Origin: Branchiostoma floridae
Taxonomy: Eukaryota > Chordata > Leptocardii > Amphioxiformes > Branchiostomatidae
DNA: 64,000 bases
NCBI RefSeq assembly: GCF_000003815.2
Contig: NC_049993.1
Location: 20,187,071 to 20,251,070 of the forward strand
Reading direction: 5' to 3'
Positions 21,566-60,900 of this stretch are shown piece by piece. The translations under genes were made by a program, and so were the position numbers. The notes beneath the pieces are model-generated. The model ran no database searches. It was not told the origin of the DNA and was given only the letters and a program-made list of their open reading frames with translations. The first letter of the stretch is position 1, and every line of letters begins with the position of its first letter.

Positions 21566-21690
21566 ATTGGTCGGAGGCTGACGTCACTGGCGGGTATATA
21601 AGGCGCTGACTGATTGGGGAAAAGCTTTACGTCGAAACGTCCCCAAGAGGAGCGCACGTTAACTTCTAACCGGCCAGCAACACAAGCACC
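21566..21690 (+). promoter_or_regulatory. Core promoter and 5' UTR of the large lipid transfer protein gene
   Basis: ATTGG (inverted CCAAT) at 21566-21570, a palindromic CRE TGACGTCA at 21579-21586, and TATATAA at about 21596-21602 sit in normal order and spacing. Transcription should begin near 21625-21632, leaving a 5' UTR of about 60 nt before the ATG at 21691 (context AGCACCATGA, a good initiation context). TATA plus CRE suggests a strongly expressed, inducible (cAMP or hormone responsive) gene; that reading is inference. Confidence 0.7.
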
Positions 21691-34900: not shown

Positions 34901-37900
34901 ATCGGAAACGAAGGAAATGCACACCAAACTAGTTACAGATAATGATAATTTCATTCAAGCTTTCAATGTAGTCAGAGTTGCAAATGAGAATCCTTTTGCC
35001 AGTTTTGGCAGCTTGTTTGGCTTTATATTCACCGTGCCTTCATCTATTCACTGTTCAGAAGACTTGTCCTAAGAACAAGCACAGATTGTCTTGACGTTCA
35101 CTGATAAAGATATAAAAAAAGTTGCTTCTTTAACTCAGATGACTCCTTGTTTCTGCATAATCCAGGCATTAAGTATGTTCAGATTCCTGGTCCTGGCATC
35201 CTCGTCTCAAAGCTCACTGCAAATAGCGTGCGAAAAAAGAAAAGTTCTTTAACTCAAATGACTCCTTGTTTCTGCATAATCCAGGCGTTAAGTATGTTCA
35301 GATTCCTGGCAATATGGCTCGTCTCAAAGCTAACTGAAAATAGCGTGCGAAAAAGGAATAGTTCTTCAACAATGACGATTTTTTTCTGCAGGATCCAGGC
35401 TTTCTCCGCCGCCATCAAGTACGAGCAGGACCGTCAGCCCATCCGCCGTCTCCGCACCCTGAAGGAGAAGCGCGACCCCACCAACTTCATCGTCAACGAC
35501 GTCTTCCGTATGGAGGTGGCCGCCCCAGGTGAGAAGGGACACTTAAGACGTTCGAAAAGACAGCCGAGATTGTGTTATTTAACTTATACACAAGATGTCC
35601 TAGATCTGGTTACTCTAGCAGTAATGAACTATAGTTTTACTCCAAGTAACAGTACAGACGAAGAAATGAATACTTAATCAAATATCTAATGGCAACATCT
35701 AACTAATATGGCAATCTAACTACGATGGTACGATGGAATGGAAAAAAACTCGTACGTCCGTCTACACATGTTTCAAGAAGAGAGAAGATGCATGTTAAAA
35801 AGATATAAGCAAAACACAGCATAATTTTTCCTGTTTTCTCTTTTCATCTATCTTACTGCATTTAGCCTCAATGGGGAAATAAACTGCATTGTCATAGTAT
35901 GAGCTACATTATAGTCATGATGTGGTAGTGTATGGGATATTTACTTTGCTTTCGTTGTTTGTTTCAGGCAAGAGCGCCAAGCGCAACATCACTTCTCTGC
36001 TGCAGGTGTTCCGTAACCAGACCCTGATGCAGTGGAACCTCACCATCCCCGACATCTACAACTTCACCGCCTACCTGGGCTTCCAGAACGAGACCGTGCC
36101 TCAGGTTTGTTTGTTTGTTTGTTTATTTTCGCAAGAAAATAATCAATCCCTAAAGAGGAATTTCCACACCGATAGCTTCGTTCCGAGAACTGCATAATTA
36201 AGGAACAATTTTCCACCGGATTGTTTCACTGTGGGGTACAATCTAAAAGAAACAAATAAATCAAAAGTACAAGTACAATACAAAGAGTTCCAATGTGGCA
36301 ACAGCACACAAGAATAATTCTTAAGATATGAAAAAAAAAAAAAAACATAAGATTAGAACTTAGCCGAGTCTATTTCATGGGGCTTGTATGGTTTATCAGG
36401 TGGGTTTTAAGGGGAAGTTTCAACGTTAGAAAAGAGAAGACTTTTTGTATATTTGCCTGAAGGTGGTTTTATATTAGGGCACTTGTAAACGTTAGAAATG
36501 AGAACACTGTACATTTGTCTGAAGGCTGTACCATATTCTTCCATCCCTGCTGCAGGTCGCCAACGGCTACACCGTGAGCCTGAACGCCACCTACCGTGAG
36601 CACCAGAACGCCAGCTGGGTCATGCGCTACCGCAACGAGAGCAACCTGCACACCACCCAGGTTAGTAGACTGGCTAGTACACTAAGACTAGCACTATTGC
36701 AACTATCGTTATCACACGTGTACTACTAACACTTTCAAAACCAGAGCAACCAGCACACCACCCAGGTTAGTAGACTGGCTAGTACACTAAGACTAGCACT
36801 ATTGCAACTATCGTTATCACAAGTGTACTACTAACACTATCAAAACCAGAGCAACCAGCACACCACCCAGGTTAGTAGACTGGCTAGTACACCAAGACTA
36901 GCACTATTGAAACTATCGCTATCACACATGTACTACTAACACTGTCAAAACCAGAGCAACCAGCACACCACCCAGGTTAGTAGACTGGCTAGTACACTAA
37001 GACTAGCACTATTGAAACTATCACTATCACACATGTACTACTAACACTGTCAAAACCAGAGCAACCTGCATACCACACAGGTTAGTAGAATGGTGCACTA
37101 GTACACTAACACTTGGACTACACAAATAACTAGTTCTACACGATCACTTGTTCTACCAAAAAAAAAGGAGCAACCTGTACACCACCCAGCTTTATAGGCC
37201 AACGTCTTCTGTACAACAATACACTAATATGATGCTGCATGTACCAGCCTTCATAGCAGGCTCTCTTTGGCCTTTTTTTTTGCACTTTTGCTGGCCATTT
37301 CTTTTTGCGGGCCTCTCTGATAGCCGGCCATTTCTAAAGTGGTCGGCTATCAGAGAGGCCAGCAATCAGCGACCCAGTACAAAAAGAAATGGCCAGCAAA
37401 AGTGCCAAAAAAAGGCCATAGAGAACCTGCTATGGAGGCTACATGTACTACCAGCACTACCGTAGCGGTAGTCCCATGCACACAACCCATGCACCTGTAC
37501 CTTTCTGTCAGTAAGACGTTGATATGATGTTGACACGAAAGAAAATTCATTTTTCGCCACTTCGACTTGAACTAAACAAGACAGATTGTTGTACTGTACA
37601 ACAAAAGAACATATATGGAACCTTTTGGCTTGGTGGAAGAACGTCATTCCAGCCTATTGTATAGCAGAAGACTATAGATGCAGAATACAATGACTGATGA
37701 TAATAGCACATTTTATAAGAATGTTCTTACATCGTGTTTTTTTCTTCATATTTCCCAACAGAACACCTTCAACATCCCCGAGCTGATGTTCCACGTGTCC
37801 AACAACATGTCCCTGTTCTGGAACCCCTGGAGCAGCCTGACCCAGTTCGAGTCCCGCTCCAACAGCTCTCTGCGCCTGTGGACCGCCAGGGCTGACCACA

Positions 37901-40900
37901 ACATGACTCTCATCAACGCCGAGGACATCTTCCGCTCCGGCTTCAACTCCTCTGCTGAGATCGACCTCACCCCTCTGAAGGTTCGTTTCAACTCTAAGAT
38001 GTCTATCTGTTCATTTTAAGGTTTTGATGTTCAGTACGCTCATCCAAGGCTGTCCAAATCATCCTAGATCCTGTGGCTATTGCAAAGGGCTAGCCCTGCT
38101 GACAAATTAGACAATACAAATGGACCTTGGCGAGGACAATATAAAAAGCTTATCATATAATATCTTGTACCTGTTTTCACAGTCTGGTTGGAAAGTCAGC
38201 TTTGTTTGCTTGTATAGATATCGCTCCGTCAGCTGCCAATGGCAAAAGAGTCATTGATCTTCTTGGATTCAGTTGAACATTATCTACGACAATCATTAAG
38301 AAGCACAGGCTCTTAACGTACAATGGAAATGTTCAGTTTGATACCTTTGAGTAATGAAAACTTTTCTGCCTTATTGCAGACCATCGTTCCTCAGATGATC
38401 GAGAAGGTCACCAGGCAGCTGCCCCAGCAGGTGCAGGAGATCCGCGCCGTGCGCGATGTGCCCTACCTGAACGAGACCCTCCTCCTGGTCAACCAGAGCG
38501 TCAGCTTCTTCAACCAGACCATCTGGAACACCACCTACATGCTGCTGAACATGTCCCGCCCCTACGTGCAGGCCGCTCTGCCCGTGGTGCAGCGCATGTA
38601 CCCCACCGTGCTGAACGTCACCGTGCCTTACACCAACTGGACTGTAGCTAACATCACTGAGATCATCACCAACGTGACCGGACAGGTCAACATCACCGAG
38701 GTAAAGACACCATCAGCACAATGACAACATAAGCGCCTTGTACATGTTACTTCTCCCCTGCTGTTTTTTGAGATATCACAAATGGAAGTTTTAACATTGG
38801 TCGAGATCCAGCTCGAACTAAACGTAAAAGCTAAGATAGATATCCCAAATGAATATATGAAGCGATGTCACAGCTCTGTGTTCAAATGCGTATTCTTTGT
38901 ATATAGTTGATATTCTGAAGTCAACAAACAGTATATATCTAAAAGAGCGAAACTGCTAAGTGATGCTAACGATATGTGTATGTTTTGAATATTTAAGATG
39001 GACTAGATACGAACTGTAAAGGACGATTTTCATCCCATACTATGCGCACCCTTGTATCAAGTAGGCTTGCCTCATAGAACTGTAGTTATGTGTCAGTAGA
39101 TGCCATGCTTTGCACCTTGTACAATTGTTACCTTTTACAATAAAGTTATCATCTATTCAGGTGTACAAGAACGTGACTCAGCTGGCCATCGAGCTGTCCC
39201 AGAACGCCACCAAGTACGCCTACTGGTACTACAACGAGACCAGCCTGTACGGCCAGGACTACGCCCGCCAGTACTTCCAGCGTCTGCCCGAGCTGCTCAC
39301 CAAGCACCGCTCCAACGTCTCCGGCGAGGTGCAGTACCTGAAGAGTCAGGGGGTCCTTCTGGAGATCAGGGTGCCCACTGTGAGCAACGTCACCGGCCTG
39401 GTTAGTTTGTCTCTTATATCTAACCTGTATTGGTTTCGTTGGCGTATATGGGCGCCGCCATTTTGTCCCAAGGGAGTTGTCTTGCTGGAGATAAGGGTGC
39501 CCACTGTGAGCAATGTTATCGGCCTGTTTAGTTTCTTTGTTATATCTAACCTGTATTGGTTTTGTTGGCGTATATGGGCGCCGCCATTTTGTCCCACGTT
39601 AGTGTTGTATGATAGTTAAATTAATAATCATTGACAAGAATATTTAAAAAAGTAGAAAAGTGAAATTGGATCATCAGCAACGAATTTAACTCATGACTAC
39701 CTTGTTTCCAGGTGCTGAACTACACCGGCATGCTGACCAACTACACCGCCGAGCTGATCGCCAACTACAGCCCCGTGGCCCTGCCCAACATCACCCTCCC
39801 CAACATCACTCTGCCCCAGATCCCCACCAACTTCACCACCCCCAACTTCACCGTCCCATACCTGCAGGTAATTGTAATTCTAATTGAAACATGTACTTCC
39901 TTCCTTTACTCAAACTATGACGAATGTATTAAATCACTATAAAAACAGCCAAGATTAAGTATATACTGCAATTAGTATGTATCTAGTAATGACACGAGAA
40001 GAACTATGTATCTTTACCGTTTTACCTGTCTATGAGTGATATGTTAAGAACAATTCTCTATCGCAATAATTCTCTTTAGACACTTGTATCTGTTGTGACT
40101 AGTATTACGTTTACTTAGTAAGTAAATAACAGTAAAAAGGTACATGATGTGAACGAGTCAGAACGACATGAACCAATTCGCAATTGTATTCCCAGTTCAA
40201 TTCAATGCATGCGTTGCGTTCACTGTGAAATTTTACAAGGGATGATAAACCATTACCCCTACTACTACCACAGTGGTACGTTCCCAAGTTCAACCTGACC
40301 GTGCCGACCGTGAACGTGACCCTGCTGACCGAGATGGCCATGAACATCACCAACAAGACCATCCAGGTCGGCGTGCAGTACGTCATGCCCTACGTGGAGA
40401 GCTACATCCCCCAGCAGCTGTACAGCAACTGGTAAGTATTTATCTATTTATTCTTATTCATGCTTTTCTACAACAGTGGACGGTAGGTTGAAAGGTGTTC
40501 CTTGTCAAGGTTCCTTGTCATTTTTTCAATGTCTTCACACCGACACGATCACGGTAAGCTAATACAACAAGTATTCAATAGATATTGATACAAAAGACTC
40601 TAGCAAGGGCGCATCGAATGATGTTGACCACGTACAAGGCTACTCTAGACTGTAAGTGTGGCGAATCTGTTTCGCATGGTTGAGTAAAGTTTCCCTTGAA
40701 AGAATGTCTAGACGCTAGAAATACATCCAATGATCCAATGATTACAAGAGCCCATTTTCATCCCATGCTACCTAATTACCAGCAAATGGCATACTTTGCA
40801 CCTTGTACAATAAAGTTACGTTTGTGTTTGAAGGTACGTGTCCATCCCCACCCTGGAGGTGATCCGCATCCCGGCCTTCGGCGAGCTGCGTGGTCTGTTC

Positions 40901-43900
40901 AACCTGAGCGCTCCTCTGTACAACACCAGCACCGTGCTGAGCCTCAGGAACGAGACCGGCATGATCGCTGAGGTCAGGTCTCTGGCCAACAGCACCTTCG
41001 ACTTCTACAACTACACTCTGATGGGTAAGAACGGCTTCTTAGATCGTTTACGGGCTGCGTCTTAGATCGCTCAGTTTTGGTGCTGCATCGGCTAAAGCCT
41101 ACATGACTCGCTTTGTTTGCACTAAGAAACACCGTGTCTATATATGTTCTTCTAAAACACTTTATCTATACCTTGTATCCTACTTCTACAACTACACTCT
41201 TATGGGTAAGAACGGCTTCTTAGATCGCTCACTGGCTGCACTATATGTTTATGTACAATGTATATGTATATGTAATGATATATGTTGATAGATAAAATAT
41301 AACAGAGATCTCTGCTATATTTTACCTGACCCTTACCTCTCTCGTGAACTCAATGAAAAGCGGCCTTCAGGCCTATTTGAGCTTCTCATGAAGAAATAAA
41401 GGTTCAAACAAACCATATAGATCGCTCTGTTTATGGTGCTGTATCAGCTCAAGCTCACTGAAATATTACTTTTTGTAAGAAACATCGTGTCTATATATAT
41501 TTATGTACATGCGTCCAGAACTCACATCGTGCCATTGACTTTCCCCAGCTACTGGCAACACCTCCCTGTGCCTGTGGACCCGTCGTCTGAACGTCTCCTC
41601 CACCTTCAACTTCCACCCATCCATCCATCCATACATACATACATACACACATACAGCAGTGCGTTACAACCAGGAGCTGTCCATAACTCATGACCTGCCT
41701 TTCACTTTCCGCAGCTACCGGCAACACCTCCCTGTGCCTGTGGACCCGCCGTCTGAACGTCTCCACCACCTTCAACTTCACCCACCCACTTGTGCGCTGC
41801 AATGCCACCCACAACACCAGCGTGGCGCTGTGGGACCGTCTGAACGTGACCACCAGCACCTGGGCCGAGCTGAACACCACCTTCCCCGAGTCCCGCACCA
41901 ACCTGACCCACGCTGGTAACTACAGCATCAACCTGACCGGCCTGAACATCACCAACAACTTCACCACCTACGCCAACCTCAGCAACTTTGCACTCGGCAA
42001 GGTCGGGCACAACTTCACCTACTTCGCTGACCTGACCAGCATCAATGCCACCACCAACTTCACCATGAAGGCTAAGGTAGGTTACCTCTCACACCTCGAC
42101 TTTTGCGTTATTGTTTTAGCAGACCATACTCTCAGATATTTACAGAAAATGGCTACAATATAAACAACAAAGTACTCGCTACTATAAACTGTATGTTTTA
42201 TCTAAATCAGAATGACATCAAGCATCCTCTAAACGGAACAATGTGTAAAATATACACACTACCGCCTGTACTCTTAACTTCGATGCAAACTATATAATCA
42301 GCACTACACTAATCATAACCCTTATCATTACCACAAGGTTGAGAACATCACCAAGATCAGGTTCAGGCACTTCGCCAACGTGTCCTCCTGTCTGTACACC
42401 GGGCTGAACGCCACCCACAACCTGACCGCCTCCCTGAACGTGAGCCGCCTGGTGCAGGCCCGCCTCAGCCACGCCGTCAACTTCTCCGGCGACTACCTCA
42501 GCAGCAACCTGACGCACAACCTCACCGTGTCCGGCAACGCCTCCCTGTGGGACTACCCCATCGCCCAGTGCGAGCTTCGCCACGTCGCCAACTCCTCCAT
42601 GAACTGGACCAGCGCCAACACCACCTCCAGCTTCGTCGGCTTCGTTAACGTCAGCATGGGCGGACACGCCAGGCTGGAGAACAACATGACCGTCAGGGCC
42701 TGCCCCCGTACCCTGAACTACACCACCAACACCGCCGTGTACGGTAACATGAGCTACCCCGAGATTCACCTCAACCTGACTCACAACTTCACCCACAACG
42801 TGGATCACTGGCAGTCCTGGAACACCAGCATGAACACCACCGCCTACTTCAAGGTAGCCAAAAGCAAATCTAAAGCTACATGTAATTCAACGGCAATGCC
42901 TCATCTTAATATTACAGTAACTGTGAATACCTTCACTTCATGTGTGTAAATCTAGTGCAATATATTGTATGTATTGCAGGTAGCTAGTATCAAATCCTAA
43001 GCTGCATATAACTTAATGCTAACTCATTATTTGATACTACTGTAAATGCACTTATACGAACCATGTCTTGCGTGTGAACCAATTGCAACATATTGTATCT
43101 ACGTACAGAGGGCATAATTTAGGAATAAAAATATTTTAGGAATAAACTATTTTGATTGAGTGATTGACTGATTGACTGATTGATTGATTTCCAGCTGAAC
43201 GAGACCCGCGTGCCCCTGGTCTGGGTGAACATCACCATCCCTGCCCTGTACGCCAACCTGACGCACAACATCACGGCCAACCTGACCCGCGCCAGCCAGA
43301 ACATCACCATGAACATGACCGCCCAGGCCCAGCAGATGCGCATCTCCCACAACTCCTCCTTCTGCAACACCAACCAGAGCAGCTGGGTGGTGCACAACAC
43401 CTCCGTGGTCGCCAACCTCACCTGGATCAACGTGACCATCCCCTTCTACAACACCAGCGTCTGGGAGTTCATCGGCCTGCAGAACGTGTCCTCTCCCCGT
43501 GAGCTTCAGTACCTTAACATCAGCGGCGTCGCTAACTACACCAAGAGCCAGGAGAACTACACCCTCCCCATCCCCCTGCTCGCCAACCTGTCCACCCCCA
43601 ACCTGACCATCCCCGTGGGGCTGCGCACACCTGCCTTCAACATCTGCATCCCCATCGTCAACTACAACATCACCGTGCCTTCCATCAAGGTACTAGGATA
43701 CTTCGTTACTTCATTAGTTCATTCCGTTAGCTAACGTACAAGATTTGTAAGCATACAATTATCCCGGACATAAAGTACACGAGAGGTATACAAGGAACTT
43801 GGATACTTTTAATAAGTCAATTAGTTAACGTGCACGGTTTGTAAGCATACAATCTTCCTACATAAGGTATACAAACATAAGACATACAAACTAGATACAG

Positions 43901-46900
43901 CTCCTTTCAGCTAGTACCTACATTCTATATCTAATCAGACTGATTTTGTACATATGAGTAACTGACAGATTGAACGTTACAAGACAAAACGTTCCCTAAC
44001 AATATGGACTGATATATAAGTCTTCTTCTTGTCATTTGTTCTTGGTTACAATCCAATAATCTGTGTTTTGCTGACATGACGTGTAACCGTGTTGATGTGT
44101 GACAGGTGATCCCTGAGTACCTGTACGTGCCCTACCTGTTCAACGTCAGCACCCCGAGGAGCATCCCTGCCTTCACTGTGCCCATGAACATCTCCATCCC
44201 CGGTCCAGGTAACATTCATTTACTTCACTCCATTTAACCATGGAACTCTCTCGATGGCGACTGTTTTTCTCCCTGTATACAAGTTTCAAGCCTTCAAAAC
44301 CAGTGTTCACTGCTATTTTCTAGCATAATAATTTCCACCATCCGTTCATTGCATAGAAGTGGTCTGACTTCCATATCTTTGGATGTGCACAAAATGAAAC
44401 TCAAGACTACATTTGAATGTGAATGGCCCCTGAGAAATTATAAGTGTTGTTTTCGGTAGAAGTGAGAAACGTGTGGCAACTGTGAAGCATGACAGAAACC
44501 TCAGAAAAAAACATAATCAGTACCTAATTGTAACTTGAGATTATAGAGTACTGTACCTAATGATTTGACGGTTGTTTTTTTCTTTCTCCAGGTAACATGA
44601 CCTACAGCCAGAACGTGAGCTCTCCCATCTTTAACATGACGTACGGCTTCAACTGCAGCCACGCCCGCCCCCAGTACAACCGTACCGAGTTCAACATCAG
44701 CGTCTTCGGACAGGCCAACTCCACCATCGAGTACTTCAACTACACATATGTTGGTCAGTATGGTTTGGTTTAACCGTTTACCTATTCATAAGAGGTTATT
44801 TTTACTTGATGGTAGTATTACTTTTATTATTATGCCAAAAGAAGGGGTTTCAATCGGGCGGCAGTCCATTTTTCATCGCAAAATTCCAAGGAACTCCGCC
44901 TCATGTACTAAGATTTGTATTCTGTAGCAAATGAACTAAGCTCCTTATGAAGTTTCACTGGCAATGATATGTGTCACACTGTGTATATTTATGGCTTATG
45001 AAGACGCAGAGGTACAAGGAAACCAGTAACTTTGCAAAACATTGTCATGTCAGTAGCCTTCTGTCCATGTTACCTACGTGTATGGTATCATGCACGGTAG
45101 TATCCTAACTGGTAGCATTGCCTCGTGTGTTGCTCCAGACCAGGCCAACACCTCCATTGAGTGGAACCTGACCCGCCCGTTCGAGAGCAAGATCAACGCC
45201 ACGTTCTTCACCAACCTGACGCACCCCATGTACTACTTCCGCCACAACTCCAGCATCCAGGCAGCCTTCCTCTCCATCAACATCAGCTCCAACACCAGCG
45301 CCGGCCTCGAGGTACCGCAAAAAAAACTTTCATTGTTCATGTACCTATTAGTCTTAAGACTGCAGAAACTAGAGCACAGGACTGTGCTACGTGGAGACAC
45401 ATGAGGAAGAGGAGCAAGCCAGTCCCTTGCCTAAGCACTTAGGCACATTTGTGAACTGAGATTGATTATGGTTGCTATTGGAGTGGACTTAAGCTAATCA
45501 GAATAGTAGTCATCAATCATAACTTACAATTGATTAATCAACCAGTCCACCAATCGATTGATTGATCGCTCAATCGAACAATCAATCGACCAATTTTCAT
45601 GGGCAGTAGGTAAGCAGAGACGTGAACTGATAGAATATAATCTGACAATCATAAACAGTTTCCGTTATCGCATGACGNNNNNNNNNNNNNNNNNNNNNNN
45701 NNNNNNNNNNNNNNNNNNNNNNNNNNNNNNNNNNNNNNNNNNNNNNNNNNNNNNNNNNNNNNNNNNNNNNNNNNNNNAGCCTTCCTGTCCATCAACATCA
45801 GCTCCAACACCAGCGCCGGCCTCGAGTTACCGCAAGCTTTTCATTGCTCATGTACTTATATGACATATCACTGTGTAAATTACTGTGTCAACTATTCAGA
45901 AGGAAAGGCCTCTGGCTTTCTCCACCCTTAAAGTCTTAAGATATGCCCAAAGATGTATTTAGGTAAAATAAAGGTAAAAAGAATGAGTTCAATGAACTTC
46001 TGGTGTTCTAAGCTTCGACGACGATGGTAACGATGTACATTTGTGAGTGGAGGATGATTATGGTCGCTATCGGAGAAGGCTAACCAGAATAGTATTCACC
46101 AGAACTTACAATCAATCAATCAACCAGTCTATCAAATTATCATGAAACTTACCTAGTTGATATAAAAAGTCGCAAAACTTTAAAGAAGCATTGACTGTTT
46201 TAATGTAAATTTCACACCTGCTAGTGCCTAAGGTCTTGTTTTATAATGCGTTTTCACACCACACGTTTAGAATCTCACCCTAGAATCGTCTATTTATCTC
46301 TTCCAGATCGACTCCGTATCCCAACTGGTACCTGCCCCTGCGCCTGTGAACATCTCCACCCCCGTCATCAAGTACAACATGACACACAACGGCAGCCTCA
46401 CCTTCTACATGCCCCTGCGCGTGGCCCTGCCCACCGTCAACGTCAGCTCCAACCAGAGCGTGTTCCTCCGCGTGCCGCCCATGAACTTCACCATGCCGTA
46501 CATCAACGTCACCACGCCCAAGTTCTACGTCAAGCACAACTCCAGCCTGGTGGCTAACTGCCGGAACATCAACATCACCAGCAACCAGACTCTGCAGTTC
46601 AAGGTAATGGTTTGGGCACGTTTGACCAATTACTGACGTCACGTATCCGCAAGATCACGTGTCGATAGATCACGTGCTTGTACCTATCGCGAGTTGAAAT
46701 GAAATGTCTGAAATGATTTGTCGGCAGTATTGATCCAGAGGAAGGCGACAGTGGTCGTTAGAAATGGATTATGGATTCGTGTATGCCTTTGTGTTTTACG
46801 AAAGTTTAGCAACTGTACTGTTTTGCCTTGTCTTCTTTTCTTTGCAAAGACATGGGGAAGGACATTAAGCAATTAACCAATAAATCATTCATCCATTCAC

Positions 46901-49900
46901 TACATAGATCCGTCCCAGCAACCTGTCCCTGCCGTTCCTGAACGTGAGCAGCCCGGACATCTGCGCCTTCCACAACTCCTCCGTGTCCCTGAAGGTGCCA
47001 ATCCTGCGCCTGGCCACTCCCAGCCTGAACGTGACCGTGAACCAGACCGTGTACGGCCGCCTGCCCCGCGCCAACGTCTCCATGCCCTTCCTCAACATCT
47101 CCACCGTGGAGATCGAGGCCGAGCACAACTCTCTGATGAACCTGTCCACCCCCGAGTGCTGCATTCTGGGCTTCTACGATCTGGCCTACCTGAACAAGTT
47201 CATCAGGTAACCAGATGATCATGGGTCTCAAACTACACGTATCTGTTATTACGCCACCGGATATGATTTTGGAAACCTATCTAGTCGCCTGAGTAACTGC
47301 TGTTGGACGTATCTTATCACATGGATGTCTAATCGTCATCGACCTATCTGTTCCTACATTTTCAGTATAACTAAGAAGCGAGAAGAAGTCGAATTCACTT
47401 AATAGAATATCTTGATAGAATATACTTCTTGTGTTGTTTGACATTGTAGATATTTCATGTATCTGTCAACTACCATTTTGTTGCGACCTCTACTTAACCG
47501 GGTGACGGAAACGGGCATAAACAGAATGAAGAAATCATGTGTTCTTGAGTAAACATGTATCTATCATTCATCCTTCAGGCCGACCGTGAACATCACCGCC
47601 AACCAGACTTTCAGCGCCATCATGCCGTCCTGCAACGCCTCCATGCCGTACATGAACATCAGGTGCAGTACTTCAACTTCACCTTTTGTCTTAAGATTAG
47701 GCTGGTCAAAAGATACTTACGTCTTAAGAAAAATACCGCCAGTTGCAGTACTTCACATCATTCTATTAAAGTTAAGTTAAGGGTATCTCTATATTACATG
47801 AAAAATCTAAAGCATATTNNNNNNNNNNNNNNNNNNNNNNNNNNNNNNNNNNNNNNNNNNNNNNNNNNNNNNNNNNNNNNNNNNNNNNNNNNNNNNNNNN
47901 NNNNNNNNNNNNNNNNNNTTTTTGTTTCTTTCGTTCTATCGTTCACGTGAGCACCCCCGAGATGCAGGCCAACGTGACCCACAACGCCACTGCCTTCGTG
48001 AGCTTCATGAACACCACCCTGTTCTGGAACCTGACCGCTCAGGCCGACAGGGTCCAGCTCAACCACACCGCGCGCATCGAGAGCTGCTTCTGCACCTCCG
48101 TCAACGTCTACACTAACACTAGTGCCAGGTTTGTTTCTTTTGTTTGTTTGTTTGAACCTTTATTTATTCATGCAAGCTCAAATCGGCCTGCAGGCCGCTT
48201 TTCATTGAGGTCATGAGGGAAGAGGCAAGGGTTAGACAAAGTATATAACAGAGATACAGTTACATCGTCCTTGTCTACGATCAGATGTATTCTCAAAGTA
48301 ATTTTTTTATCTACTTATTGGTCACCAAGTAACAAGACCAGAAGGCATTTCAAGGTGTGACCTGAAAGCTACTCTAAGGTTACGGGTTACATTGTAACTG
48401 CAACAGCATCTCTTCGCCCTAGGTCAGAAACATCATGATTAAGACCAGTTCAATTGCTCACTATGAGTGAGGACTAATTGACCAAATAGGCGAAGCATGG
48501 AATGCCGGAATGGCTTGCAATTGCAGTTGAATCAAAGAAGTCCTGACATGACCCACCTGTTTACCAGATAACCTATGTCGGCCCCCGTCTTACGTTTGTA
48601 TGTTTCTGATCTGACAGGTGCGAGATCCCGTCCATCAACATCACCGTGCCTTACACCGGGTTCAACATCTCCACTCCAACATGACCCATCTGTTCACCAG
48701 ATAACCTATGTCGTCCCCCGTCTCATGTTGTTCTGTTTATTATCTGACAGGTGCGAGATCCCGTCCATCAACATCACCGTGCCTTACACCGGGTTCAACG
48801 TGTCCACTCCATCCTTCATCACCAACATGACCCACTAGTGTACCAGATAACCTATGTCGCCCCCCGTCTTAAATTTTTATGTTTCTGATCTGACAGGTGC
48901 GAGATCCCGTCCATCAACATCACCGTGCCTTACACCGGGTTCAACGTGTCTACTCCCTCCTTCATCACCAACATGACCCACTAGTGTACCAGATAACCTA
49001 TGTCGCCCCCCGTCTTAAGTTTTTATGTTTCTGATCTGACAGGTGCGAGATCCCGTCCATCAACATCACCGTGCCTTACACAGGGTTCAACATGTCCACT
49101 CCATCCTTCCTCACTAACATGACCCACTAGTGTACCAGAAAACCTATGTCGGCCCCCGTCTTACGTTTGTATGTTTCTGATCTGACAGGTGCGAGATCCC
49201 GTCCATCAACATCACCGTGCCTTACACCGGGTTCAACATCTCCACTCCAACATGACCCATCTGTTCACCAGATAACCTATGTCGCCCCCCGTCTCATGTT
49301 GTTCTGTTTATTATCTGACAGGTGCGAGATCCCGTCCATCAACATCACCGTGCCTTACACCGGGTTCAACGTGTCCACTCCATCCTTCATCACCAACATG
49401 ACCCACCTGATGAACGCCACCATCGCTCTGGAAAGGCAGAACATCACCTGGAACGTCACCGCCAAGGTCAACTCCACCTGCTTCGCGCAGAACGTCAGCA
49501 TCGTCAACGACTGGCAGCGCATCGAGGCCGTCCACAACACCTCCATCGGTGCCAACCTGACCTTCCTGGACTTCCGCATCCCTTACGTCAACACTTCCAT
49601 CTGGAACGTCACCGGCATGAACAGGACCACCTCCTACAACCAGCTGCAGTACCTCAACTTCTCCGGCGTGTGGCGCTACGACTTCGGTAAGATCACCTGG
49701 ATCAAGGTTGATCTGCCCAGGATCAGGACCCCCAAGATCCCCATCCCCGATCTGCAGAAGATCCAGCTGCCCCAGATCCCCGACATGACCCCCCTGACCT
49801 ACGCCAACATCAGCACCCCAGAGATCACCGTGCCGTGGTTCAACTACACCATCCCCTCCATCCGCCTGGGCGTCAACACTTCCATCCCCGCCTTCCGCGT

Positions 49901-52900
49901 GCCGCTGACCAACTACACCACCCCGTCTATCAACGTCAGCCTGACCACCCTTAACATCTCTCAGGTAGGCACAAAACGATTTAGAGTTCTATCTACATTT
50001 CCAATAAATACCGATTACCAAATACATATCAATTCATAGCTAGGGCATAAAACCTGCTCTTCAACAAACACTAATCCGTCTATCAACGTTAGTCTTACCA
50101 CCCTCAACATTTCCCATAACTTTTAAAGTTTACTCTACATATCGACTCATAACTAGGGGATAAAATTTGCTCTTCAACAAATGTTCTAAGATTGTCTTCA
50201 ACTCCTTTACATATCAATTTAGGATATATTTTACCATTAGCAATTACACTGTATATGAAAAGACGATAAAATTTTAGTGATGTTAAGTTTTTTAGTTTTT
50301 GTGTAATCAAAGATGCACAATTTAGCTGTCGACTGCTATGTAGTACCTGGTTCATGGAGTTTAGCTGAATTAACCTTTCAGGGATCTTTGAAAAACGCCG
50401 GTCAGGCGACATGTACCCCTGGATAAAAAAAATAAACAAACAAACAATTGTTTCCTTCATCTTCCAGTGGACCGTGCCCTGCACCAACCTGACCATCCCC
50501 GAGATGCGTCTGTCCCTGCCCGTGGAGCTGCTGCCCAACATCACCCTGCCCAGGATCCCCACCCAGGAGGAGGTCCAGCAGTACGTGCCCTTCCAGATCC
50601 CCAGGATGCCAAAGGTACGGGATGCAACAGCATTGTTGCTATTATTACAGGTTCGCGATGAGCGAAACCTGTTCTGTTTTTGCTTCCGTCTTTGGGCGCC
50701 GCCATGATGAATTTTGATTGCTTAAAATATCTGTCAGTGGATAGTTTACAAATAGGGGAAGATGTATTTCTAGGGGAAGATGTTTCAAACAGAAAGACAA
50801 TGATAAGCAAATTGCATTAGATTTTGATGATCGGTGACACGCTCAATGAAAGTCCACACAATATACTGGAAATAACCGGTGGAACGATCATCTTGATTTT
50901 GACTGTTTTCTATTGGACAATCCAAATTCTCTTCCGCCAATTGGACCGGGCTTTTTTCGTCCATATCTCTGCAGTGTCTCCAACGAAAGGTAGTAGATGC
51001 TACCTGCAATGACTGACCGTTTCCCAGATCATATCCAGTTGCATGAGTAACTGCTTTTTGACACAGTGGAACGCTAGCTCTATATGAATCTTCCAGTCCA
51101 TTGACTCCACTACCTCATGTTCTTCCCAGGTGATCCCATCTTACAAGCTGAACCTGCCCAAGAGGCTGCACCTCCCCATCCCCGCAATGGGTAACGCCAG
51201 CGTCTCCATGGAGATGAGGTCTCCCATCTACAATGTCTCCGCCGGAGCCGAACTCAGGAACGAGACCTCCATCATCGCCAGGGCCAACGCCACCGTCAAC
51301 TGCACCCTGGAGTTCCTGAACTTCACCACCCAGGGTACGTTATCCAGTGTATCGTTTTTTTTTTATAGTGCCTTATAACGGCTGGTTGTTGCAATTGGGT
51401 GCTTAGAGTGTTCTTGAACGAGTTGCAGTTGTGTGTGTAGGTCTTTACTATCCTGGCTGTCTTTGGTCGACAGTAAGAGGAAAATAGTCGTGTGTGTGTG
51501 TTTGTGTGTGCGTATGTGTGTGCGATAGTTGTGTGTGTCTGTGTGTGTGTGTGCGAGAACAAAGAAAGAGAGAATATGAGGGAGAGAAAGGAAGAGATCC
51601 GCATAGAACTCTCATACCTAGAAACCTTCAATAACACCTTAACTCTTTTCTACCACACAGCTGAGGCCAACCTGACCATCCCCCACTACAACGAGATCAT
51701 CACCGGCCTGTCCTTCAACCACAGCCAGCAGTGGATGCGCTGCAACTTCACCCACAACGCCTCCATCGCCGTGGGCTGGGAGAAGCAGAACGTCACCTTC
51801 AACCACACCTTCTCGTGCCAGACCCCGGTCCAGCAGGTGCACCTGGCCCAGAACCTGACCGTGCGCAACAACCTGACTCACTTCGAGGTTGGGAAATACC
51901 TAACATTACAGGACACTTCTCAATAGCAATAGCAATTCAAATTCAGATGATAACGACATTGGATACTTAGAATCTTAAAGAAGTACCTGTATAACATCAT
52001 AAGACACTTGTAACTAGCACTTCGGACATTGCCATTGAATGCTTACAATCTCTAAGAATTATTCCAATATCGTGCCAAAGTGAAACGTAACCATCCAAAC
52101 TTACAATAGTGTGACTAAAAATCACAGGAAGAATCAATAACGTGAGTACATGTATGTAGGGATTTGTTAACGGTTTTGATGGAGAACCCTTTCCTGTGCT
52201 GAGTTTACCATGGTTTTGCCGCACCCCCTGTAGATCTGGTCTAACGAGACAGCTGCCACCAACGCCACACTGCTGCAGTACATCAGTCTCTACAACATCT
52301 CTCTGTGGGACGTCCTTCGTCTGAACGAGACCTCCTCCCCCCAGCAGCTCCAGCGCGTTAACGTCACCACCTACTTCTGCTACAGCAAGTCTAACGAGAC
52401 CTGGGAGTTCCCCATCTTCAACTTCACCGCTCCCACCACCAAGGTATACACTCATTACATTTCCGCCTTGCAGATCTATAGGATTAGGACATCAAACACC
52501 GACACAAATCTGAGCTGATACAGTGCATTGCATATATTTAGAAACTTAGGACATCATGGTATAAATCATGTACGTGGTGCAGTAGCTCTGGATGTTACTG
52601 AGGTATATCTGTCCTATCTCTGTTTGCTTCGTTTGGTTGTGACTCCACACTTCCGAAGGTTTATACTGGATTAAACTCGAACTAAAATCTAACATGTTAC
52701 AGTATCTTAAAACACAAGTTCATAGCATCCGCACTACTTTCTTCTTATCAGGCATAGATACACATACATTGCAACCTAGTTTAGAATGAATCACTTGAGT
52801 AACAGTGTAGCACATCGGTACATAGCCGCACTTGACCAGACAGTACATAATAAACCTGGAAACTTTCCAGTTTAAAAAATTGTTTAGATAAACTTCATTC

Positions 52901-55900
52901 GTTCGTTCATTCGTTCATCCGTTCATTCATTCCTTCGTTCATTCATTCGTCCATTGATATTTGATTTTGATTTGATTTATACGGGTGTACAATCATGAGG
53001 AATCGTCCATTCATCCGTTCGTTTTTTCGTTCATCCATTCGATCAATCTAGCAGGTCGACATCACACTGAAGTTAGGTACAGCTCAATTAAGAATTTTAA
53101 AGTCTGCAATAGTGACAACACAAATTTCATTCCTTTATTCATCTATTCATTCACTCCCTCTAGCTTGGCGAGATCAGGCTGAACACCACCTGGCTGTACG
53201 CCCTGGCTAACGCCACCTCCACCTACATGAACGTCAGCCTGCCTTACATCGGCAACGTCACCGAGCTCGCCTCTAACGTCACCTACTTCCTCAACACCAC
53301 CGACCAGATGCTGAACGCCACCGACTACCTGCGCAACGCCACCTACCTGGTGCTCAACTACACCCTGCCCGTCGTCAGGTACACACCAAAGGAACATAGA
53401 AGAACTTTATTGCACGACAATTGTACATGATACAATGTATGGCAACAACTATTACACAAAGTACATAATAGAGGTATCTTCGGCTCTTATCGTCTCGGAA
53501 GACGGTCGACAGCTCAGCCTGCTCCTCAGTCGGTTACTGGTTACCGGTTACAGTTCTCTCCTGGCAGTTCATTTCATGACTTATGAGTTCAATCTTGGTA
53601 CGGCAGCCTCTTCCACAGAATTCTTTGATATAGTATTACAATAGAGTAGGCTAATCGTTAGCTACGGTATTCTTTCTAATAGCAGCGCAACCCTTGATAT
53701 ATTTGCCTATTTTTGCGTCAGGAACGTGACCGAGTACATCTGGCGCCTGCCTTACGTGCCCCAGGTCTCCTACTTCGTCGGGAACATGAGCCTGCCACGT
53801 ATGACTCTGTACCCCAAGATCATCGTGCCGGCTCTCGGAAACACCACCTTCAGGGTAATTGTTACTCTCCAACTTACTTAAGCTTATGCTTAGGTCTAGT
53901 TCAGCCGTTTTCCCCCTTTTACATAGTGTTGTTTCAGCTATGGTGTCCAAATGTTGACGTTTTTGAAGTTGCTTGAACCCTTAATAAAAAAAACATAGTC
54001 TAGATAACTTTAATTTCCGGATTAAAAAGATGTCTCAAAATATCATTTTACGTAAGATTTGATTACTTAAAGCCTCTGAAATTAGTTGAGTTTTGAGTTT
54101 CACATTTTCTGATCCTATACTACAAGTTGATGCTAACTCTGAAAACATGTGTACTTAGCATGTATCGATCTCTGAGAAAAATGTGTACTTAACGTGTATT
54201 TCTAAGAAAAATGGGTGCTTATCGTGTATTTTTAGGAATAAACGTAACGTGTATTCCTAAGAAAAATGGGTGCTTAACGTGTATTTCTAAGAATAAACGT
54301 AACGTGTATTTCTAAGAGTAAACGTAACGTTTATTTCTAAGAATAAACGTGTACTTAACGTGTATTTCTCTCCGTTTCCCAGGTTAACGTGAGCTCCCCC
54401 GTGTACAACCTGACCCTGGACAGCCAGCTGGTGAACACCACCCTGGTGCAGAACAAGTCCGCCATCGTGCACCTGCTCAACTGCACCGCCAACTCCACCC
54501 TGGACTTCCTCAACTTCACCATGCAGAGTAAGTTTATTTCATTATTTACGTTTATTCTAAATCCTGTTACATTTTCATCATTATATCCCCGTGTATGCTT
54601 GCAATTAACTATAACCTTTAACTATAAGTAACAATAACCTTTAAGTCTAACTTGAACCTTAATCTCGAATGTGGACATCAGGGATGTCATCACTGGTTAA
54701 TGGATTCTTCTTAATGAAGTCTAGCTTAAAGATTCATTATACATTTTTGTTTTTGTTTTGTTTTTGTGCTTTTATTTCAACTCGATAAATACTTCATCGG
54801 CCTTCAAGAACAAAACATTTAATGTGAATGACCTATACAGCAATTTGCTTTCGTATTTCTGGTGTTTGTGAACATGCTGCACAAGATATGCTGAGTGAGG
54901 AACACAAGTCTCTCTTTCTGACTCTGAACACAGCTGTTGGATCCTGAAGAGAACCGGCCTGCGTACATAATACCTAACCGAGTTCTTCTCCGTGTTGTTC
55001 CCAGGCTACCTGAACGTGTCTCACGCCCACAACCTGACCGAGCTGAACATCTCCGCCTCCGCGAACCTGACCCACCCTGACGTCACTGTCAACGTCACCA
55101 TGAACACCACCGGCATCAACGTCACCGACATCTGGTTCACCAAGTTCAACCACTCCCTGGTGGTCAACGTCACCGCCTACGACTGGGTCAACGCCACCAT
55201 GAACTTCACCATGAGCAACAACACCGTGTACGCTAACCTGACCGTGCCCACCCTGGAGAGCTCCGTGGCTCTGCTGGCCCAGCGTAACGCTAGCGTGCTC
55301 AACGTCACTCTGTACCACCAGCAGAAGGTAGGTCTTCAACCTTGTCAAGTCCTACATAAATCGATCTTCATCTCGTGTTGACTATGTTTGGATGAGCAAG
55401 AAATATATAAAAAAAGCAATAGGGGTATAGACACTCCTTTCTTTCATGGCCATTGTTAATGACTTTTGGTGCCTTCAGACTTGGTAAGCAATGGCTTCAC
55501 CATTCTACCTTTCTACAGTTTTGGTCTCTGTATGTATGTGTGTATTCTGCAATAGGTCCATTAATTGCTAAGTGTCCTCAACAGTCACATGAATCATCAA
55601 CAAATGCTTTTACCAAAATGACAAGAAACGAAGTTGAATGTTTCATCGCCATATTCTCATATATAAACGTTACCCCTGCTCTCTTTCATCATCAACGAGA
55701 CACTTCTTCACAGTGGTAATCATAATAACGTTGTTTCCTCACATTTTCCCGCAGCCCGAGTACCGTAACATCACCGCCTGGCAGCTGGCCGTGGCCCTGA
55801 ACCGCTCCGACGCCGTGTCCTTCCGGTTCCGCCTGAACCCGGAGTCCCTGCTGCTCAGGCCCACCAACCTCACCTTCCAGCTCACCAAGGCCTTCTACCG

Positions 55901-57852
55901 CGCCATCTGGAACCAGTCCCACCCCATCAACAAGTACCCCCTCAAGTACATCAACAGGACCATCTCTGAGGTAGGCACAAACTTACTTTCTTAATTATCC
56001 TCTTCATCCCATGTGGGATAAGTTTCCTCCACTAGGGTCTGTTCTGTGCTAGGGGCTGAGCAGCATCCCAGGGGATCCCAATGGCCGCTAGGTCTTTAGC
56101 CACAGTGCGTATCCACGCACGTAGTTTTAGGACGTCCCCGTTTTCTCTTCCCCTCAGGGACCCAGTGTAGAGCAACTTTGGGGATACATCCGTAGAACAT
56201 GGCCCAGCCATTTTAGTCTTCTGATGGCAATTTCAGTAGACAATAGGTAGTAGTTACACTAAGTACCGGCATTCTAGTGCTATGTTGATGGCTAATCCAG
56301 CAGTCATGTATTGATCATGTGATGCTACTTTTGTTTCCTTAGGCCATCAAGGAGCCCATCGTCCTGAGCTACAACTTCTCCATGGACTGCGCCAACCAGA
56401 CCCTGAACGTCTCCATGTACGTGTTCAACTACACCGTCAACTACGTCCTGGACAACTACAACGCCACCGTGACCTCTGCCCTCAACACCACGCTCCACCT
56501 GGCGAACTACACCATGAACTACACCCTGGAGCTGGTCAACAAGACCCTGAACTACTCCATCGAGTCCCTGAACAACTTGACCTTCACCATCCCCCAGATC
56601 AACGTCACCATCAAGGGATCCGAGATCGTCGGCAACGTCACTCAGCTCATCCAGAACGTCACCCGTTACTCTACCGTAAGCAATGTTTCTGTTGTTGTTG
56701 TTGACGTTGTTGTTTTGTTAAGCTCTGGTGAGAATGTTGGAATTTTATTGTAGTTTGTTAGCTTACTTATACATGTATGTTGGAAGGCTATTTACAATAT
56801 GATAACTTAAGAGTTGTTAATAGCTATAGAAAACCTAAAATGATTTCTTGCCATTGGATATGTTCTTGTCCAAGAAAAGATTCGTACCTTCTTACCGTTT
56901 TCTGCAGAAATGCTATTGCTCATATCTATCTGTGCAAAATTGTTACGTGTTATATTGGCTAAAATGTGGATAGCAAATAGCCTTAGTGCCTACGTGTCTT
57001 GTGAATCCTTGACCAATCATGACCGTTCTCTCCATCTGCAGAAGCTGCAGAGGAACGCTACCCACCTGATCGGTAACCTGACCCAGCTGGCCATGAACGC
57101 CTCCTACTACGGCTACAACGTCACCGAGAACGTCATGCGCAACGTCACTCGCTTCATCGACGGCAACCTGCCAGTTGTCAGTAAGTAGCACGAAGCCTTT
57201 TTTCTGTTCCTAAGCGTATGGTAGAGTACTAGGAAAGGATAGCAAAACTGTTCACAGAACCGTTCTGGTCCTGAGTCGGAATAGAACAAAACAAGAAGTG
57301 ATGATCGTCTCTTGATACGATAGACATTAGGAAAGTCTTGTTAATCGTTATCGTTTAGATCCACAGAGTGTGGTGACTCGAAACCACCTGGTCATTAGCT
57401 CTGAACAGTATGCGACTCGTTCATCATCACACAGACCACCTTCCACTCCGTATGCTTGAGCGACTAGTTAGGCAAATGTAACTCCATACTAGTAGTGAGA
57501 TATAAACTGTGTTTCACTAGACTAAGACTTCATCAGCTACAGCAACATGATAGCTAACCATGCTAGTTAGGCAAATCTAAGTCCATGTAGATATAAGTAG
57601 TAATGAGACATGTTTCTCTAGGCTGGGCCTGGCGCTATTGGGACCCCATCAACTACAGCATCAGGCTGGCCAACTCCACCATCCAGTACGCCCGTAACGT
57701 GAACTACACCGACGCCAGCCAGGTCGCCATGGCCATGACCGATCTGGCCATCAACCGTACCCTCAACTACACCGTGGAGTACGTGCCTCAGGTACGGCTA
57801 TCCTTACATCAGTATCAAACATTCAGAACACAACCTATGTATGCTACTCAGC

Positions 57853-57923
<71 letters not shown>

Positions 57924-60900
57924 GCTTGCGTAGAATATTGGGTAAATAGATGAAATATTTTTGTAGCCTTGCCACTGTTGGCACAGTCATACATCAAAGG
58001 ATCATCATCTATGGACTAAACAAATTGTCAGGCCGCACTGACGGATAACATCAATGGAATCAGCCCAGTTCTAGATCTTATTTCTGCGTTGTTACAGTGA
58101 TACAAGAAACATCAGAGCAAAACACCAATAATTTAATTAATTTCCCTCCACGTTGTTCCCCAGGTTACTGAGTGGGCCGTGAACAAGACCTGGGAGACCA
58201 CCTCCTACGCCGCCAAGTACGCCACCGACTACGTCGTGCAGTCCTCCAACGGCAGCATCGAGTTTAACCTGTACCACCCCTTCAACTGGACCCGCTTCGA
58301 CGAGGTAAGCATTGGTGTACATTATTTTCTAGCGTTGACTGACGAATAGAAAGTTACAACAGTGTTCGCAAAACCTACTAATTACGGAAAAAGTGCCTCC
58401 CACTTCTTCCAAAAAGTCAATCCCAAACGTCAACCCCAAAAAGCTTAGATTGTAGTTCGCAGCAGTCCATAGTAGAACAGTCGCTTGTCTGTATACTTTT
58501 TTGTATATATTGTATGTTCCATTAGCCCTCGGGCAAGAATTCCACGAAAAATGAAACTCTTGTTGATAGAACCACCATCGTTATCATTTCAGGTTCCTTC
58601 CGTGAGCAACAGGACCGCCGACCTCCTGAGGCAGACCGCTGAGATGATGACGGCCATGTGGCGCTCCCCCATGTCCGCTATGCGCGAGATCCCACCTTTC
58701 GACAGTAAGTTTTTTTTTTTTTTATTAAAAACAACAACAATGGTACATTTGTCAACCACTAAGACTAGTGTTTGTACTGTCGAGTACTATTGCACATGGA
58801 GGGATAACATATACTGGTGTGTCTGGACGAATTACATGGTTAATTTCACATGCAATACATGGGTAGTGGAACAGTCAGAAAAGACAAATACAAAAACTTT
58901 CTATAGTAAGTTACAAACTTTGGCTGAACATGATAAACCACTGCATAACAGACCACTTCTGTACTCAGGGATTGGGGCTTCGATAAGAATGACATAGTCT
59001 AAGCCACCACTGGATAATTCACCATTGTCGAGAGAACGTATATTTATTAAGTCTTAGCCCGGTGCGTTATGGCCAAAGGTATCAACTAAGTTTCAAATTC
59101 AAGAAAAAGACAGATATTTGTCGGTTTCTTGTCTTTTTTGTTGTTGTCTCTGATCATCTTTGGACCCCAATGTCACTTCAATATAAAATAAATATCCCTC
59201 CAGGGGACAAATCCCCTTCATTGTAAGGCTAAACAAAGTCGAACGCATTTTTGCTATCGTTACCACGATCTAACCTGTCCTAATGTCTTCCCAGGGACCT
59301 CCATCACCTTCGGTCAGCACGTCCTCACCTGGGACGAGCACCTGTACGACGTGCCCCAGGCCGCCTCCGACGACTGCGTCTACGTCCTGGCCCGCGACTT
59401 CGACGACGGCAACTTCACCATCCTGAGCAGCAAGGAGGGCATCACCGTCCAGCTGCCCACCGCTGTGGTCGAGATTAACAAGGAGAACCACGTCAGGGTT
59501 GACGGTAAGAATCTGCCTTCTTGTTGCTATTGGTATTCAAGATTTGTTGGTTGGACTATCAAATACGTACAGCCAGAACTGCCTAACCAGTCAGTGGCTT
59601 TCTCAGTTTGTTTGCACTGTAAGTAGTTTTTTTTAGCATTCGGAGATACTTGCTGGGTTTCTTTGGGAGGGGGCTACTTACCTCTTTACTAATTACTTAA
59701 AGTAAAAAGGCCGAAGGTAGCACATTTAAGTGGATACGCTATGGACACGCACAGAACCAGAATTCTAAACTGCGTTTACACAATTTTACCCAGTTGAAAA
59801 CAAGATTCATAAGCTTTACCGTTGAACCTTCAGGCCTTGGAAGCTGTAGCACACAAAGCAAAGTAAGGTTTCCTTGAATAAATATGCAACTTCGTTCCGT
59901 AGGCTCCAAGCAGCCCACCGAGCTCCCCTACCAGAGCGAGGAGAAGAATATCACCATCCTGCGCCAGGGACCCTACGTGAACATCACCACCCGCGACGGC
60001 GTGTCCGTCCGCTGCGACGCCATCAACGAGATCTGCGTGTACAACATCTCCGGCTGGTACCACAACAAGACCCTGGGTCTGCTCGGCACCAACGACAACG
60101 AGCCCGCCACCGACTTCCGCCGCCCCGACGGGTCCGTCACCGACCGCGAGGATGCCTTCGTCAACTCCTACGAGGTCACCAAGACCAAGAACTGCAAGGT
60201 GGGACTCGAAACAACTTTTTTTGTGTGAACTATACCCCGATTTCTTATGAACATACTACTGTCAGTCAGTCTATACAGACTATGGCACAAACTCCTACGA
60301 GGTCACCAACACAAAGAACGGCAAGGTGGGCTTCGATACAGTGTATCTTTCTTACCTTGACTATACCCCGGACCACAGAGCATTCAAATACAGTCATCCT
60401 GCCCCAAAAGAACACCCAGGGGACTGATACAACCTGGAATTGGTAAACCCAAAGTATTGAACCGTCTACAAATGCATTGGACTACTCGCTCAAAAATGAT
60501 CGTATAAACGTATGCAATACACTGAAATCGTAAACGGACATGTTGCTATCCAGATTACAACTGTTGAGATTTTTGTTTATCTCTTTGATGATGGAAAGAA
60601 CAAACCAGTTCTATCACCTATGTAACCCCTCTGACAGACAGGCTAGAAGGGTTCTCCCGCTGTTTAAGACAGGCGTTTGGAACTTAGATGTGATGATTTT
60701 TCAAAAACATTTTGTGACTGACGAGTTGGACTGTTCCTCCGCAGATCGACAGCGAGAGGAACGTCGCCAAGGGCAAGTTCGCCGCCATCACCGACTGCTA
60801 CATCCCCGAGTCTCCCAAGTGTGACGAGCTCTTCAGCCGCGAGAACTACGCCTCCAAGTTCAGGTGCGAATACTTATACAGTATATGTACAGTTCGTGTT

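Follow-up and report, generated by a model that had tools for sequence, protein, structure and literature searches.

A 64,000-nucleotide stretch of the Branchiostoma floridae genome (C15:20187071-20251070, forward strand; referred to here as the window) holds a gene of the apoB family in which 33 exons, at 35968-58704 on the plus strand, encode 2,518 residues with 254 N-glycosylation sequons (N-x-S/T), a density of 10.1 per 100 residues. When counted strictly within exons, with junction codons excluded, the figure is 253 sequons in 2,506 residues. We favor the reading, to which we would assign a probability of about 0.68, that the product is a secreted lipoprotein of this family whose lipid belt is made polar at its surface mainly by N-glycans instead of charged residues. 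The gene model was predicted by chaining open frames via codon preference, splice signals and phase, and this independent procedure arrives at the very count given by an initial annotation of this DNA, which had called an apoB-like lipoprotein with 254 sequons in about 2,500 residues. The two exons which that annotation had singled out, of 172 and 165 residues with 20 sequons each, were likewise recovered (42338-42853 and 43195-43689).

The initial annotation had proposed a comparison with shuffled sequences, and this comparison excludes chance as the source of the density. Residue shuffles of the sequon-rich region (n = 2,000) held 53±6 sequons with a maximum of 73, dipeptide-preserving shuffles (n = 500) held 64±6.5 with a maximum of 84, and the reversed motif [ST]-x-N occurs 69 times, the excess being 4.8-fold over composition shuffles and 3.7-fold over the reversed motif. 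Three-frame translation of the introns of the same stretch yields 0.81 sequons per 100 versus 10.1 in the exons, and 254 of the 290 Asn residues of the region stand inside a sequon. In composition the region is rich in Asn (11.5%) and Thr (11.4%), with Asp, Glu, Lys and Arg together at 11.1% and hydrophobic residues at 44%. The preceding 1,082 residues, signal peptide included, hold 23 sequons (shuffles 6.3±2.3) and the last 543 residues hold 5 (shuffles 2.6±1.5); there are thus two sharp changes in density, one where the lipid-transfer module ends and one at the VWD domain. The sparseness upstream had been noted in the initial annotation, where about 19 sequons in 1,091 residues were given; the much lower density stands, while the count is corrected to 23 in 1,082. 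Codon usage is strongly biased, with 358 of 363 Asn codons being AAC and 5 AAT, and with a G+C content at third codon positions of 0.89-0.93 as compared to 0.68 in a neighboring open frame, a preference that fits high expression but may have other causes. A search of the genome (513 Mb in 431 contigs) with a 458-residue piece of the sequon-rich region revealed no second copy, all 6 listed matches falling within the same gene.

Beyond their number, the sequons look selected, being commoner than composition predicts and apparently built to be usable. The ratio of Thr to Ser in sequons is 170:84, as opposed to 116:116 elsewhere (P=1.6e-4). Proline at position +1 or +3 blocks glycan transfer; N-P-[ST] is absent from the region, and Pro is found at +3 in one of the 254 sequons where 13.9 would be expected, while it occurs 51 times at +4. 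Asp is likewise absent from +1, where Glu occurs 10 times. The spacing of the sites follows a similar rule: no two sequons are 1 residue apart and one pair is 3 apart (some 25 and 21 such gaps would be expected at this density, and five to six each by composition alone), whereas 30 pairs are 4 apart, and sites closer than 4 residues amount to one case. If the sites are occupied, oligosaccharyltransferase would be working near its spacing limit across thousands of residues. The serine of the sequon is drawn from both codon families (AGC 40, TCC 38), and the density is therefore not the repetition of one DNA word.

Intragenic repeats are nonetheless present. Self-BLAST of the middle of the protein over its whole length listed none; in chunks, repeats appeared among the best 25 matches. 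Since sequons drive the unmasked chunked alignments, we relied on 10 alignments made with the sequons masked, among them M380-554 with M1595-1775 and M808-994 with M1409-1594. In these, the unmasked residues are 34% identical (252/732), and 61 sequon positions are common to both copies (97 and 85 present; 8.6 expected). The approximate first repeat unit lies at 39712-43689 (+) and includes the two densest long exons.

The relationship to apoB is direct, as the initial annotation had surmised, and extends over both parts of the protein. The N-terminal module matches residues 15-1061 of human apoB-100 with E=1.1e-146. Among PDB chains it scores 493.8 bits with apoB-100, 65.7 with lipovitellin (2.2e-17) and 24.2 with MTP, as judged by search scores; on these values we rejected an identity as vitellogenin. 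Homology extends to the sequon-rich middle, which matches the beta-rich C-terminal half of apoB-100 with E=3.1e-25 when all 2,518 residues are used and E=1.9e-33 for a 407-residue piece. In the latter search the blocks that are strong on their own cover human residues 2613-2838, 3246-3445 and 3626-3927, and weaker ones cover 1325-1422, 1956-2024 and 3080-3130. One exon of 214 residues with 20 sequons (49322-49964, +) matches apoB-100 residues 3626-3737 by itself (E=1.5e-5).

These alignments, made with phmmer, allow the question of where the sites sit to be put to the human protein, and the counts below are taken over the alignment rows listed in two sets of blocks, the second derived from another window repeat and composed mostly of weak blocks. 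Human blocks 1956-2077 and 3142-3191, each of about 2 bits or less and holding no human sequon, were left out of both. In the first set, window sequon Asn residues occupy 63 columns. The human residue in these is hydrophobic 7 times, as compared to 308 times in 673 other columns (P=1.4e-8); charged residues make up 22 of the 63 and 107 of the 673 (P=3.8e-4). The second set gives 4 hydrophobic and 16 charged residues at 44 sequon Asn positions, versus 182 and 77 of all 436 columns. The sequon Asn therefore stands on what in human apoB is the polar side, presumably, to judge from the alignments, the side facing solvent. Furthermore, seven of the eight human glycosylation sites within the first set fall on a window sequon, where 0.68 would be expected, as opposed to 7 of 40 other human Asn residues (Fisher P=3e-4). 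Where human sites fall in strong blocks, of which there are two, the agreement is four of four (N2779, N3336, N3358 and N3411), with N3336 and N3358 aligning with sequons of the exon at 51130-51334 (+), which encodes an IPAMGN-type strand. Four of seven human sites coincide in the second set (0.71 expected); N1377 coincides here and not in the first, N2779 and N3336 coincide in the first and not here, and N3465 meets no window sequon in this second set. As the two counts overlap on the human side, they are to be read as support rather than as independent evidence. In the N-terminal module, the window position aligned with human N185 is not a sequon. Human apoB has 19 potential N-sites in 4,560 residues, in line with the figure of about 20 in the initial annotation, of which 17 are occupied, and the seven that coincide in the first set are each listed with a glycan, as given in the consulted portion of PMC4891372.

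A sequon-poor paralogue on the same chromosome serves as a control for these observations. This gene, C15b, is an apoB/apolipophorin-like paralogue on the minus strand at about 19.84-19.88 Mb of C15, some 330 kb from the window gene, and our model of it is a prediction with some doubtful small exons. It has the same order of Vitellogenin_N, open beta-sheet, DUF1081, long middle, VWD and C8. Unlike that of the window gene, however, its middle holds 5 sequons in 2,081 residues (below the shuffled value of 15.3±3.6), with charged residues at 26.9% versus 11.1% and hydrophobic residues at 36% versus 44%. In BLAST of the window protein against C15b, residues 51-1036 and 3546-4140 align and nothing between, the C-terminal 595 residues being 30% identical, and as such most of the two middles cannot be compared site by site. 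The N-terminal part of C15b matches apoB-100, whereas its middle gives no match at E up to 10; since the window middle does match, the window gene stands closer to apoB than C15b does.

A genome search for Vitellogenin_N found 27 matching places, which we grouped into this gene and six further loci of the large lipid transfer protein (LLTP) family. Models for five of these, C15b included, have 0.16-1.1 sequons per 100 residues; four of the five models are partial, three being vitellogenin-like in composition by eye and one Gln-rich. From the sixth locus, on C5, about 200 residues could be modeled, with 1 sequon. The view in the initial annotation that the density is unusual among LLTPs is thus upheld within this genome, and beyond the genome the comparison extends to human apoB. 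In the open-access literature as searched (main texts, with supplements unread and subscription journals largely outside the scope), no LLTP of such sequon density was found, and within that literature the sequon-dense belt appears to be undescribed.

On the reading we favor, the N-terminal module would load lipid as in other LLTPs, and the long beta-rich belt, as the homologue of the C-terminal half of apoB-100, would wrap the lipid and keep its hydrophobic face toward it. On the outer face, N-glycans may take the place of charge, attached to Asn residues where human apoB has polar or charged ones. A sugar layer of this density would be expected to keep the particle dispersed and to shield it from proteases and aggregation; taking an assumed value of about 2 kDa per glycan, 254 occupied sites would place some 0.5 MDa of sugar on a 466-kDa chain. 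Such steric stabilization would be independent of charge, a property that may be relevant in a salty body fluid. The same layer would preclude receptor docking based on charge, including docking at a basic site like that for the low-density lipoprotein (LDL) receptor, and without a basic receptor site uptake would require recognition of a lectin type. The description of the product as a glycan-armoured lipoprotein, put forward in the initial annotation, is accordingly a prediction, plausible on the sequence, that agrees with several signs of selection for usable sites. The fuller proposition, that glycans replace charge over some 2,500 residues with a mass of sugar near that of the protein itself, and that the human sites are the surviving subset of an ancient chordate pattern, we put forward tentatively, and judge it possible rather than probable.

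Several points weigh against the favored reading. The gene model was built on splice signals and codon use. Outside the strong blocks, the coinciding human sites come from blocks that score 4 to 14 bits (N1368 at 11.4, N3101 at 4.0 and N3895 at 13.6), and the site counts are not independent, because the alignments reward Asn-Asn matches and several window repeats hit the same human stretches. As a class, acidic residues show no avoidance at +1 (10 versus 12.9 expected). The periodicity of the sequons rises above the 95% level in two of seven sub-regions, and AlphaFold models of the exons at 49322-49964 and 56343-56675 have predicted local distance difference test scores of 31 and 37, with no usable fold. 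Last, the consulted portions of reports on apoB-like proteins in egg coats (PMC9265791, PMC3543715) make a non-circulating role possible.

This last point leads to the strongest of the rival explanations, in which an apoB scaffold has been turned into a glycoprotein of the egg coat or extracellular matrix, with lipid carriage no longer its main task, VWD and C8 serving to cross-link, and the glycans forming a hydrated coat or a sperm-binding surface. An apoB-like protein is the most abundant in the vitelline coat of Ciona, as described in the part of PMC9265791 consulted, and one was detected by mass spectrometry in the egg coat of Branchiostoma belcheri (PMC3543715, likewise in the part consulted); the window gene does have the VWD and C8 domains. 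We nonetheless consider this explanation rather unlikely, given that the lipid-transfer module is conserved at full length and that the middle shows no fall in hydrophobic content (44% versus 36% in C15b). The B. belcheri protein may, moreover, correspond either to the window gene or to the paralogue C15b, and in the consulted text of PMC3543715 PNGase F changed the overall gel pattern of the egg coat little. A different rival concerns the direction of evolution and not the molecule, and can be compatible with the favored reading: dense N-glycosylation of the belt would be the ancestral chordate state, from which vertebrate apoB lost most sites, the 17 occupied human ones being a remnant. The overlap of human sites with window sequons (7 of 8 in one set and 4 of 7 in the other, with about 0.7 expected in either) is what such an ancestry would leave. 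It would also fit a modest ancestral set later enlarged in the lancelet lineage, and few sequons are present in C15b and the rest of the LLTP models from this genome, while human N185 has no sequon opposite it; with human as the sole other chordate orthologue compared for gain versus loss, we regard ancestral density as improbable.

The two remaining alternatives call the sites or the gene itself into question. Were the sequons incidental to an Asn/Thr-rich, repeat-bearing region and largely unused, the proportions of Asn (11.5%) and Thr (11.4%) and the intragenic repeats would be accounted for; the 4.8-fold and 3.7-fold excesses, the position-specific rules for Pro, Thr and spacing, and the drawing of sequon Ser from both codon families (AGC 40, TCC 38) would not, and such an artefact is very improbable. 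That the model has fused two genes, the N-terminus of an LLTP and a separate glycoprotein, is suggested by the jump in density at one boundary, after residue 1082, in a model which is predicted. It is scarcely credible when the middle shows homology of its own to the part of apoB-100 that follows the same module, the order of LLTP module, long middle and VWD-C8 recurs in C15b, and phases and strand are continuous.

Set beside known systems, the protein resembles vertebrate apoB-100 in its succession of Vitellogenin_N, open beta-sheet, DUF1081 and a long beta-rich region of direct sequence similarity, and in several glycosylation positions held in common. It differs in having few charged residues in the middle. 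In addition, the basic stretch RLTRKRGLKLATA of human apoB (near residue 3386), which we take to be the LDL-receptor site, stands opposite a 13-residue window stretch in which the basic character is not kept. The C-terminal VWD (1.5e-16) and C8 (3e-8) domains are a further difference, as vertebrate apoB is not known to have a VWD-C8 C-terminus. The succession of LLTP module, long middle and VWD is found also in insect apolipophorin II/I and decapod apolipocrustacein. In number of sites the contrast is between 254 in 2,518 residues and 19 potential sites in 4,560 (PMC4891372, portion consulted). The ascidian vitelline-coat protein is likened to the window protein by description, as an apoB-like chordate protein, in the accessible part of PMC9265791. 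C15b, as noted, shares the order of LLTP module, VWD and C8 and departs in its charge-rich middle.

Apolipoprotein B is the scaffold of LDL. If the favored reading is correct, the window gene would provide a natural apoB relative in which N-glycans do the job of charged residues on the solvent-facing side, and would offer a direct route to what glycans do for a lipoprotein, whether in stability, receptor choice or protease resistance, and to the age of the human sites. The exact function of apoB glycans is described as still unknown in the portion of PMC4891372 consulted.

The final gene model comprises 59 exons and 4,143 residues, running from 21691 to about 0.9 kb past the window end, where the coding sequence, open through 64000, reaches a stop at C15:20251970. 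By Pfam the order of domains is Vitellogenin_N, open beta-sheet, DUF1081, a long middle (no Pfam match within the 802 residues scanned), VWD, C8 and a weak VWA-like domain; the gene thus extends beyond 58704, where the initial annotation had ended it, to a C-terminus of VWD, C8 and VWA-like parts. A probable first exon at 21691-21736 (+), encoding a predicted signal peptide of 15 residues, was added from a separate scan; it has the only hydrophobic ATG start with a phase-1 donor among those listed in 20500-25290, and of its two donor variants the 46-base one was chosen. The apoB-type lipid-transfer module occupies 16 exons at 25294-35528 (+), with Pfam values of 3.1e-83 for Vitellogenin_N, 1.1e-60 for Vit_open_b-sht and 2.9e-14 for DUF1081. 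At 35392-35528, just ahead of the sequon-rich region, a basic 12-residue stretch begins at model residue 1055; this is a possible proprotein-convertase site, cleavage at which would split the lipid-transfer module from the glycan-rich belt.

Two assembly gaps of 100 bases lie inside the sequon-rich region (45678-45777 and 47819-47918). Two introns with tandem repeats contain eight optional mini-exons, which the model excludes, three of them without sequons and five with one each. At 48600-49340, a tandem repeat of about 146 bases carries in every copy an acceptor and the start of the next exon, which yields optional 42-base mini-exons, all in frame and each adding one sequon. At 36640-37080, the 3' end of the exon at 36556-36660 is copied together with its donor (SNQHTTQ) in a tandem repeat with a unit of about 105 bases, which may supply further mini-exons. 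In the part just before the VWD domain (55755-58704, +), the sequon Asn residues show a periodicity of about 100 degrees, with spacings of 4, 7 and 11 (z=4.2 versus random placement, the 95% level of the null maxima being 3.4; seven regions were tested), which hints at helix-like spacing. Against this, the low-confidence AlphaFold model of the exon at 56343-56675 shows strands and no helix.

Downstream, also on the plus strand, the VWD exons lie at 59295-60198 (Pfam 1.5e-16), the C8 and Cys-rich exons at 60745-61732 (Pfam C8 3e-8) and the weak VWA-like exons at 62413-63810 (Pfam VWA 1.1e-4, at 23.0 bits just short of the 23.8 cut-off). The DxSxS metal motif of VWA domains was looked for in this last part and is absent. 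C15b has a stretch similar to the VWA-like domain, which Pfam does not list there at E up to 0.1.

Around the window, two tandem vitellogenin-like genes lie on the minus strand at C15:20.29-20.33 Mb, convergent with the window gene, and four LLTP genes (the window gene, C15b and these two) fall within about 0.5 Mb of C15. An LLTP of the same N-terminal family, with a Gln-rich body containing long QQQ runs, is found at C6:11.96-11.98 Mb. Elsewhere in the genome, homeobox genes (150 of 246 candidates scored) are clustered at C16:10.16-10.64 Mb, with about 14 on a single strand, and at C7:10.65-10.69 Mb, with three, consistent with the Hox and ParaHox arrangement of a cephalochordate and with Branchiostoma floridae; GFP genes, sought as a marker of lancelets, were absent here and from the controls alike, a result that carries no weight. 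Upstream of the gene within the window, on the same strand, 6262-8582 contains open reading frames of a multi-pass membrane protein that by eye is patched/sterol-sensing-domain-like.

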